NCBI RefSeq assembly: GCF_007992435.1
Contig: NZ_BKAG01000001.1
Coordinates: 124,001-188,000 of the forward strand
Reading direction: 5' to 3'
DNA from: Prosthecobacter gellanilyticus
GTDB lineage: Bacteria > Verrucomicrobiota > Verrucomicrobiia > Verrucomicrobiales > Verrucomicrobiaceae
Length of the DNA stretch: 64,000 nt
The notes beneath the pieces were generated by a model that saw only the letters and a list, made by a program, of their open reading frames with translations, was not told the DNA's origin and ran no database searches. Shown here piece after piece: positions 17,462 to 19,037 of this stretch (positions within the stretch are counted from its first letter, which is position 1; every line of letters starts with the position of its first letter). The translations under genes were made by a program, and so were the position numbers.

Positions 17462-18202
17462 TTACCCAACGTTCTCACATGTTGTGTTGGAAATTCTAGT
17501 GGTTGTATAATCGGCCGCAGACTCGGTCGGAGGACCCGCTTCCAGAGCCACGCGTGCGGCTTCGACCTCTGCTTCCTTCTTGCTGCGGCCATGGCCACGA
17601 CCCAGCTCACGACCATCCCACTGCACGATCGCGACGAAGGACTTGGCGTGATCAGGACCGCTCTCATGGATGATGCGGTAGCTGGGTGACTGCGGGCTGA
17701 TGGCCTGGAGCATCTCCTGAAGCTGGCCTTTGGGATTCTGATCAACCGGGCTGGCACCCAGGCTCTCGATCTCCGCCGTGAAAAGACGTTTGGCCATGTG
17801 GCGGGCGGCCTCCATGCCTCCATCGATGAACACCGCTCCGGCGACCGCCTCCAGCGCATCCGCGAGGGAAGAGTCACGCTCGCGGCCACCATGGCTCTCT
17901 TCTCCACGCCCCATTAAAAGGAAGCCGCCGAGCTGGATGCCGCGCGCCACCTTGGCCAGGGCCTTGGTGGAGACGAGTTGCGCGCGAGTCTTCGTCAGCA
18001 GGCCTTCATCGGCATCTTTGTAGCGGTCGAAGAGGATCTCCGAGAGCAGCAGCTGGAGCACGGCATCTCCCAGGAATTCCAGACGCTGGTTGTCAGGCTG
18101 GGTGCGCTGGGTCTCATATCCCAGGCTGGCGTGTGTGAGTGCTTCAGTGAGCAGAGAGCGGTCTCGAAAAGAATGACCGAGGACGGATTCCAGGTGTTCC
18201 AT
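17462..18202 (-). CDS. rnc: ribonuclease III
   Basis: A 246-residue double-strand-specific endoribonuclease that processes rRNA precursors and structured transcripts. The signature NQRLEFLGDAVL is at residues 38-49, containing the metal-binding Glu and Asp. The second acidic pair lies in LADALEAVAGAVFID. A C-terminal dsRNA-binding domain starts near residue 158 (NPKGQLQEMLQ) and contains the GRGHGRSKKEAEVEAA helix. The long upstream frame would run through the tRNA gene, so ATG 18202 is chosen. tRNA-His lies 48 bases upstream on the same strand and may be co-transcribed. Confidence 0.94.
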   Translation of the reverse strand: MEHLESVLGHSFRDRSLLTEALTHASLGYETQRTQPDNQRLEFLGDAVLQLLLSEILFDRYKDADEGLLTKTRAQLVSTKALAKVARGIQLGGFLLMGRGEESHGGRERDSSLADALEAVAGAVFIDGGMEAARHMAKRLFTAEIESLGASPVDQNPKGQLQEMLQAISPQSPSYRIIHESGPDHAKSFVAIVQWDGRELGRGHGRSKKEAEVEAARVALEAGPPTESAADYTTTRISNTTCENVG

Positions 18203-18250
18203 GAAGCGCAGTCGGGAGCTGTGGCGCGTGTCCGGGGCGAGTGAAGATGG

Positions 18251-18323
18251 GGTGATCGACGGGATTCGAACCCGCAACAACCAGAATCACAATCTGGGGC
18301 TCTACCATTGAGCTACGACCACC
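18251..18323 (-). tRNA. tRNA-His (anticodon GTG)
   Basis: Read on the minus strand, the cloverleaf is complete. The acceptor stem GTGGTCG pairs with CGATCAC (one G-T pair), preceded by the extra G-1 opposite C73 that marks histidine tRNAs. The anticodon arm CCAGA-TTGTGAT-TCTGG carries GTG. The T arm contains GGTTCGAATCC. The 3' CCA is not encoded. Confidence 0.95.
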
Positions 18324-18416
18324 ATCTCGCGGGCGCGACAGTAGTACATTCAACCGAGTGCGCCAGCGGTTTTTTCAGTTGTCAACGTGCCGGGTCTCCA
18401 GCACTCTCCACTTTCC

Positions 18417-19037
18417 ATGAGTTCTCCCCCTAATAGAGGCAATTCTTCACGTCCCGGCGGCGGTGGCGGCGGTTATCGTCCCGGCGGCCCGCCACGTCCG
18501 GGTGGTCCCCCACGTCCAGGTGGCGGCGGTCCCCCACGTCCGGGAGGTGGCGGCCCTCCACGTCCAGGTGGCACCGGTGCCGGCGGTCCTCCGCGACCCG
18601 GTGGTGGTGGCGGAACAGGCGGTCCCCCACGTCCAGGTGGCGGCGGTGGCCCTGGCGGTCCTCCGCGTCCAGGTGGTGGTGGTCCTCCACGTCCGGGCGG
18701 CCCTCCTCGCCCAGGTGGCGGTGGTGGTCCGCGCCCAGGTGGTTACCGTGGCGGCGGCCGTGGCCGTGGTCGCGGCGGTCCCCCGCAGCGTCGTCCAGAG
18801 CCACCTCCAGATGATGATACAAAGCAGAAGGAAGAAGCCATCGAGCTGGAAGGTGTGATCACCGCCGTGCTCGCGGGCACCATGTTCCGTGTGAAGTTGA
18901 AAAACGAACACGAAGTGCTGGCTCACATCTCGGGCAAGATGCGCAAGAAGTTCATCCGTCTCGTCATCGGTGATGGCGTGAAGCTGGAAATGTCACCCTA
19001 TGACATGGACAAGGCGCGCATTGTTTATCGCCTCTGA
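18417..19037 (+). CDS. infA: translation initiation factor IF-1 with long Gly/Pro/Arg-rich N-terminal extension
   Basis: A 206-residue protein from ATG 18417; a GTG 30 bases earlier is possible but less likely. Residues 139-206 form a normal IF-1 OB fold: [21 protein letters not shown], then LENG-like [24 protein letters not shown]-like [14 protein letters not shown] and ARIVYRL. IF-1 binds the 30S A site with IF-2 and IF-3. Normal IF-1 has about 72 residues. Here about 136 residues precede it, made of around ten PPRPGG-type units, polyglycine and an [11 protein letters not shown] box, then acidic PDDD. The extension should be disordered and RNA-binding. The frame is continuous, so this is one gene. 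Confidence 0.9.

Follow-up and report, generated by a model that had tools for sequence, protein, structure and literature searches.

A basic N-terminal tail, predicted to be disordered, on bacterial initiation factor IF-1 in Verrucomicrobiales

The infA gene of Prosthecobacter gellanilyticus (18417..19037, + strand of the window, the whole stretch of 64,000 nucleotides analysed here) encodes a 206-residue protein in which a complete IF-1 core follows a long, basic and very probably translated extension, and most sampled members of the order Verrucomicrobiales share an N-terminal tail of this kind. The common picture of IF-1 is that of an OB fold with nothing attached, ~72 residues in all, and eIF1A tails are generally regarded as something that eukaryotes added in connection with scanning; the protein described here clearly exceeds that usual size. 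Our tentative reading, to which we give just short of even weight, is that a basic, disordered, RNA-contacting tail on the sole IF-1 of the cell acts in an eIF1A-like manner during 30S initiation at starts that are poor in Shine-Dalgarno (SD) pairing or leaderless. The single gene copy, coding-type selection, order-wide spread, basic charge and predicted disorder all support this reading, under which the likeness to eIF1A would reflect convergence, not descent.

The initial annotation had reported an unbroken frame and an intact IF-1 core, and both hold. Translation from ATG 18417 gives 206 codons followed by a stop, with no internal stops. The TIGR00008 infA model matches residues 138–206 at 97.6 bits (cut-off 61.15), covering model positions 1–69 of 69, and PF01176 matches residues 142–205 at 75 bits (cut-off 30.2). 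Together with AlphaFold and Foldseek, these models place the core, an OB fold, at residues 137–206 (18825..19034, + strand). The AlphaFold model of the core contains the five strands and short helix of an OB fold, with pLDDT values of 82–91 per ten-residue block from residue 141. Its top PDB match in Foldseek is an IF-1 (3i4o_B, E 1.5e-9), and IF-1 chains, including 30S-bound ones, rank first, followed by eIF1A and aIF1A. By family membership, the protein is a bacterial IF-1 and not an eIF1A.

This infA is also the only copy. A search of the whole assembly (137 contigs totalling 7.65 Mb, with a completeness of 99.93%) returned one eIF-1a family match, the gene at 18417, and no further match at E 0.001, which rules out the second, normal infA that the initial annotation had considered. 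As part of our preferred explanation, the single copy and the selection described below support the view that this gene supplies the sole IF-1 of the cell and is made as a long protein. The usual place of infA is within secY-infA-rpmJ-rpsM. Since an IF-1 query found no significant match at the rpsM locus (best E 2.2), where an L36 query did match beside rpsM, the gene appears to lie away from that place. Its divergent neighbour is a tRNA-His gene (18248..18322, − strand; ARAGORN), and the nearby frame 17462–18280 (− strand) presumably encodes RNase III, judging by how its sequence reads. Two or three eIF-1a family matches are listed for many genomes of the class and for some of the order; within the order, the weak second matches score about 30–40 bits.

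The extension comprises the 136 residues before the core and is, as first described, rich in Gly, Pro and Arg and built from PPRPGG-type units, with an RG-rich box of 12 residues. Its main part (residues 1–127; 18417..18797, + strand), delimited by composition, tandem repeats, selection and pLDDT, contains no Asp or Glu and carries a net charge of +19. A 14-residue acidic linker recognised from its sequence (residues 128–141; 18798..18839, + strand) follows. This layout, in which an acid-free basic tail leads through an acidic linker into the OB core, recurs among N-tailed forms. Tandem Repeats Finder reports overlapping tandem repeats of 18, 24, 36 and 69 bases over the extension; the length of the tail in the window is due to PPRPGG-type repeats that are visible in the DNA. 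Other species carry other repeat types (SGPPRGIVGG, GPPNR, TGNLANGGPGR) and some have short tails, and the long PPRPGG array may represent a lineage-specific repeat expansion from a shorter ancestral tail. AlphaFold assigns residues 1–140 a pLDDT of 39–59 per ten-residue block and the tail is accordingly predicted to be disordered, with the proviso that the input held 29 sequences and that low pLDDT within repeats is weak proof of disorder. A search of the genome for other proteins that share the tail as a module gave no further match at E 0.001, a result in which low-complexity filters may hide some matches.

The pattern of sequence change makes translation of the extension very probable. In 23 pairs of close relatives, which were hand-picked and reuse loci so that the pairs are not independent, differences within the extension fall at codon positions 1/2/3 in the ratio 126/89/581, and 27 of 31 gap runs in frame-blind alignments are multiples of three. 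In the same pairs, pN/pS (Nei-Gojobori) is 0.152 for the extension vs 0.008 for the core, the tail thus changing faster than the core; between the window and locus L044, the nearest relative read, dN/dS of the extension is 0.111. The codon-position bias, the indels in threes and the pN/pS values rule out a spurious open frame, and because the frame is kept under purifying selection in relatives, its openness is more than chance. The window itself has no in-frame ATG, GTG, TTG or CTG between ATG 18417 and the core. In 14 of the 114 loci checked, the stretch from the upstream stop codon to the core holds no NTG codon of any kind, and the tail frame is kept there; it must therefore open at another codon. 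It is conceivable that the extension stays untranslated and a short IF-1 is made, as the 71–87 residues of PDB IF-1 chains (12 distinct sequences) might suggest, but the missing NTG start, the coding-type selection and those 14 loci make this extremely improbable.

Translation probably begins at ATG 18417. A GTG at 18387 would give a 216-residue frame, but it lies within a conserved block (18379–18407) and is absent from L044, which makes the ATG the likely start. The block itself, TTGTCA, 17 nt and CACTCT (18379..18407, + strand), is promoter-like, and a promoter function is putative. In the form TTGTNN, 16 or 17 nt and CA[CT][TC][CT]T, it is found ahead of infA at 41 of the 42 Prosthecobacter loci examined, the window included, 9–42 nt from the ATG (one of the 43 loci was left out for its short upstream sequence). 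It is the single exact match in the 64-kb window, where 0.12 would be expected and 12 of 100 shuffles contained one; a scan with the sigma-70 consensus called no site at the block. The 9 nt between the second hexamer and the ATG (18408..18416, + strand) hold no SD sequence and point to a probable near-leaderless start. The gap from the second hexamer to the ATG is 9–10 nt at nine loci, one of them the window, and no other tail in the genus is as long as theirs (123–149 residues; the next has 97). As the nine loci may belong to one clade, the short gap and the longest tails may go back to one event. This arrangement suggests that the infA mRNA is near-leaderless, with the transcription start placed by inference.

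The initial annotation had treated the extension as the oddity of one gene, which proves too narrow: the tail is common to most of the order as read, and its conservation in relatives is borne out by an N-terminal tail (19 or more residues ahead of the core) in 101 of 109 infA genes from six families (f1–f6 in the numbering of the search tool). These tails span 24–173 residues with a median of 49, and their net charge ranges from 0 to +18 (median +8), being positive in 100 of the 101. All eight other genes belong to f3. In six of them (L098, L099, L101, L105, L106 and L120), 4–6 residues lead into the core, and 22–65 residues with a net charge of +6 to +15 follow it as a C-terminal tail; L104 has 16 residues before the core (net +7), and L107 is without any tail. 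Within Prosthecobacter, 43 of 48 genomes gave an IF-1 match, one each (33 of 33 among those of good quality). At the level of the family, Verrucomicrobiaceae, a match was found in 60 of 68 genomes (46 of 47 of good quality), and all 58 that were read, with G059 and G065 left out, carry the N-terminal tail.

The survey covered the phylum Verrucomicrobiota, with the order and class samples read in part and chosen for genus spread or best score. Start sites were set by rule at the ATG nearest the core and in 32 loci by hand, including Ile codons after AAGGAG; L119, a contig-end fragment, was dropped. Among the class loci outside the order, 52 of 58 have 2–7 residues before the core. For the remainder, three gave −1 (a start inside the motif), two gave 15 and 19 residues from an uncertain TTG start, and one missed the search expression. 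C-terminal tails of at least 12 residues with a net charge of +2 or more occur in 19 of 57 class loci outside the order. Loci L123–L143 show basic C-tailed IF-1 in parts of the class. No basic N-terminal tail was seen at the 26 loci from other classes of the phylum: 11 match the expression with 3–4 residues, and 15 were judged by eye, among them L259, which has about 24 non-basic residues. Across the sample, then, the N-terminal tail belongs to most of the order, and basic C-terminal tails are an alternative.

These distributions bear on what the tail might do. One possibility, which we consider open to doubt but by no means negligible, is that the tail serves generally in RNA binding or ribosome recruitment: by charge alone it would make IF-1 bind rRNA or mRNA more tightly, much like the basic tails of ribosomal proteins, with no contact at the P site and no part in start-codon choice. 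Basic charge indeed persists through changes of sequence, length and repeats. The C-terminal placement in six order genomes, the basic C-tails found in 19 of 57 loci of the class and the SD-poor relatives without a tail described below also favour such a looser, charge-based role. The acidic linker that recurs beside the core in N-tailed forms would be needless for mere charge, and counts, as weak evidence, against it. The repetitive Pro/Gly/Arg sequence of low complexity, with its RG-rich box, is a feature of composition only; it could also suit the phase separation suggested in the initial annotation, with the tail promoting condensates that depend on RNA, or other assemblies, perhaps as a store of initiation complexes. 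We judge this distinctly unlikely: 65 of the 101 tails are only 24–60 residues long, and for that reason condensate formation is improbable as the original role. Nearly neutral repeat growth, tolerated on an essential protein and without a job of its own, would account for the wide variation in length and repeat type, the whole-codon indels and the faster change of the extension relative to the core. It is nonetheless very unlikely in view of the pN/pS of the extension, the 581 of 796 differences at third positions, and the positive charge of all tails but one across six families.

Apparent non-AUG starts are a further feature of some tailed genes. Of the 101, 19 were assigned, partly by hand, an ATC (13), ATT (5) or ATA (1) start. 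In ten genomes of genus g12, which we take as Akkermansia (L089 and L229–L237), AAGGAG stands six bases before the ATC or ATT that opens the tail; L233 has one GTG inside the tail as well. AAGGAG or AAAGGAG lies 6–7 nt from several non-AUG infA starts, and L095 and L097 have such starts with no SD. Apparent AUC, AUU or AUA starts, mostly 6–7 nt after AAGGAG, are seen in L089, L229–L237, L096, L116–L118, L238 and L243. We also read infC starts in five of eight genomes (L358, L360 and L365 were left out); in G160 (infC locus L363), infC apparently starts at ATA after AGGAGG, and infA likewise at ATA after AAAGGAG. A known parallel is E. coli infC, whose AUU start serves IF3 autoregulation, and the non-AUG infA starts could possibly reflect autoregulation of the infC type. 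Among the open-licence PMC matches listed, no paper describes infA with an AUC, AUU or AUA start.

A further reading posits two isoforms, the long protein read from the ATG and a shorter IF-1 initiated at an in-frame AUC at Ile142 (18840..18842, + strand), comparable to the long and short forms of IF2. This AUC follows AAGGAAG, with AAGGA 7 nt before it, and is a weak candidate for the start near residue 137 that the initial annotation had named as a possible refutation. An SD-like 4-mer occupies this place in 67 of 107 order loci, and AUC, AUU and AUA are seemingly used as infA starts in relatives. The SD-like letters are, however, also Lys-Glu codons: AAG-GAR is used in 46 of 59 cases, close to the use of AAG for core lysines (247 of 336). 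The codon at this position is no likely start in 17 of 107 loci, and most Akkermansia of the AUC clade lack the SD-like site there. As a start conserved across the order, AUC 18840 is therefore weakened, and we regard the two-isoform reading as very unlikely.

We gauged SD use with a rough measure, the fraction of in-frame ATGs preceded by AGGA, GGAG or GAGG vs the two other frames, on ORFs chosen by length with ATG starts only, taking 40 kb from each genome (64 kb in the case of the window) and one E. coli stretch as control. The signal is 0.53 vs 0.03 in control frames for E. coli K-12 and 0.383 vs 0.032 for six genomes from other classes of the phylum. It drops to 0.104 vs 0.044 for nineteen N-tailed genomes (0.02 vs 0.03 in the window), 0.032 vs 0.032 for two C-tailed order genomes, 0.129 vs 0.027 for nine C-tailed class genomes and 0.132 vs 0.022 for five untailed class genomes. 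Three N-tailed genomes have a clearer signal (G129 0.32, G067 0.23, G076 0.21). In line with these values, the available parts of two publications describe Akkermansia as SD-scarce (PMC10783764) and give it 10% leaderless start sites vs 0.4% in E. coli (PMC4782308). SD scarcity is class-wide in our sample and wider than the N-terminal tail. Being class-wide, it does not alone explain the tail, and a joint origin of tail and SD loss is weakened for the same reason.

Under the eIF1A-like reading that we prefer, the IF-1 core, which is conserved, would take the usual IF-1 position in the A site of the 30S subunit. The tail would follow the mRNA channel or 16S rRNA, holding mRNA and initiator tRNA electrostatically, as the N-terminal tail of eIF1A does. 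It would thereby steady initiation complexes on the SD-poor or leaderless starts common in these bacteria, a job that weak SD pairing would make useful. Several observations speak against this proposal. The tail does not track SD scarcity, as the five untailed class genomes are also SD-poor and the three N-tailed genomes just named have a clearer SD signal, and it changes faster than the core. Moreover, since six order genomes are C-tailed and L107 is untailed, a fixed N-terminal contact at the P site is not required by all. The suggestion in the initial annotation that the extension may bind rRNA or mRNA fits the selection, order-wide spread, basic charge, predicted disorder and eIF1A-like layout.

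A broader and more speculative proposal, possible but on balance doubtful, is that an eIF1A-like N-terminal tail arose independently on the IF-1 of Verrucomicrobiales, Akkermansia included, and replaces part of the SD anchor, so that the 30S subunit can hold weak, leaderless and non-AUG starts. The infA gene would then sense this activity through its own unusual start, a near-leaderless ATG in part of Prosthecobacter and AUC, AUU or AUA in Akkermansia and others, in an autoregulatory loop like that of infC. A selected, basic, disordered IF-1 tail in an SD-poor class would offer a natural test of whether tails replace mRNA–rRNA pairing, and as Akkermansia, a cultivable gut commensal, is also tailed, such a test is practical.

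Comparison with known systems places the protein among bacterial IF-1s, with which it shares a full-length core above curated cut-offs, the OB fold and its standing as sole copy; it differs in having 206 residues vs ~72, the 12 solved IF-1 sequences matched being 71–87 residues long. The open-licence PMC matches listed include no paper describing an extended bacterial IF-1, which is no proof of absence in print. IF1 occupies the A site according to the accessible part of PMC5037330, a part in which we found nothing on its N-terminus, and the portion available of PMC6412873 places eIF1A and aIF1A before the A site, with IF1 as their bacterial homologue. The closest resemblance in layout is to the N-terminal tail of eIF1A, since both have a homologous OB core directly preceded by a basic, unstructured tail, here a predicted property. 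As far as the accessible text of PMC5756025 goes, the eIF1A tail is unstructured, and it is only in the closed complex that five of its basic residues touch tRNAi, mRNA or 18S rRNA; its loss, or changes to its basic residues, suppress initiation at near-cognate and poor-context starts. The window protein is nevertheless no eIF1A by sequence (TIGR00523 26 bits, cut-off 102.9), is without the acidic C-terminal extension, and has a much longer, Arg/Pro/Gly-rich tail with repeats. For aIF1A, the core fold matches (4mno) and a basic N-terminal tail is reported, but that archaeal tail is described as shortened (both in the consulted portion of PMC6412873), and the archaeal model NF003082 scores 18.9 bits against a cut-off of 108. 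Finally, the flexible N-terminal extension of IF2-alpha, which in the available part of PMC13345285 aids factor recruitment to the 30S complex, is alike in being a flexible extension on an initiation factor, although it belongs to another factor with other domains and another composition.
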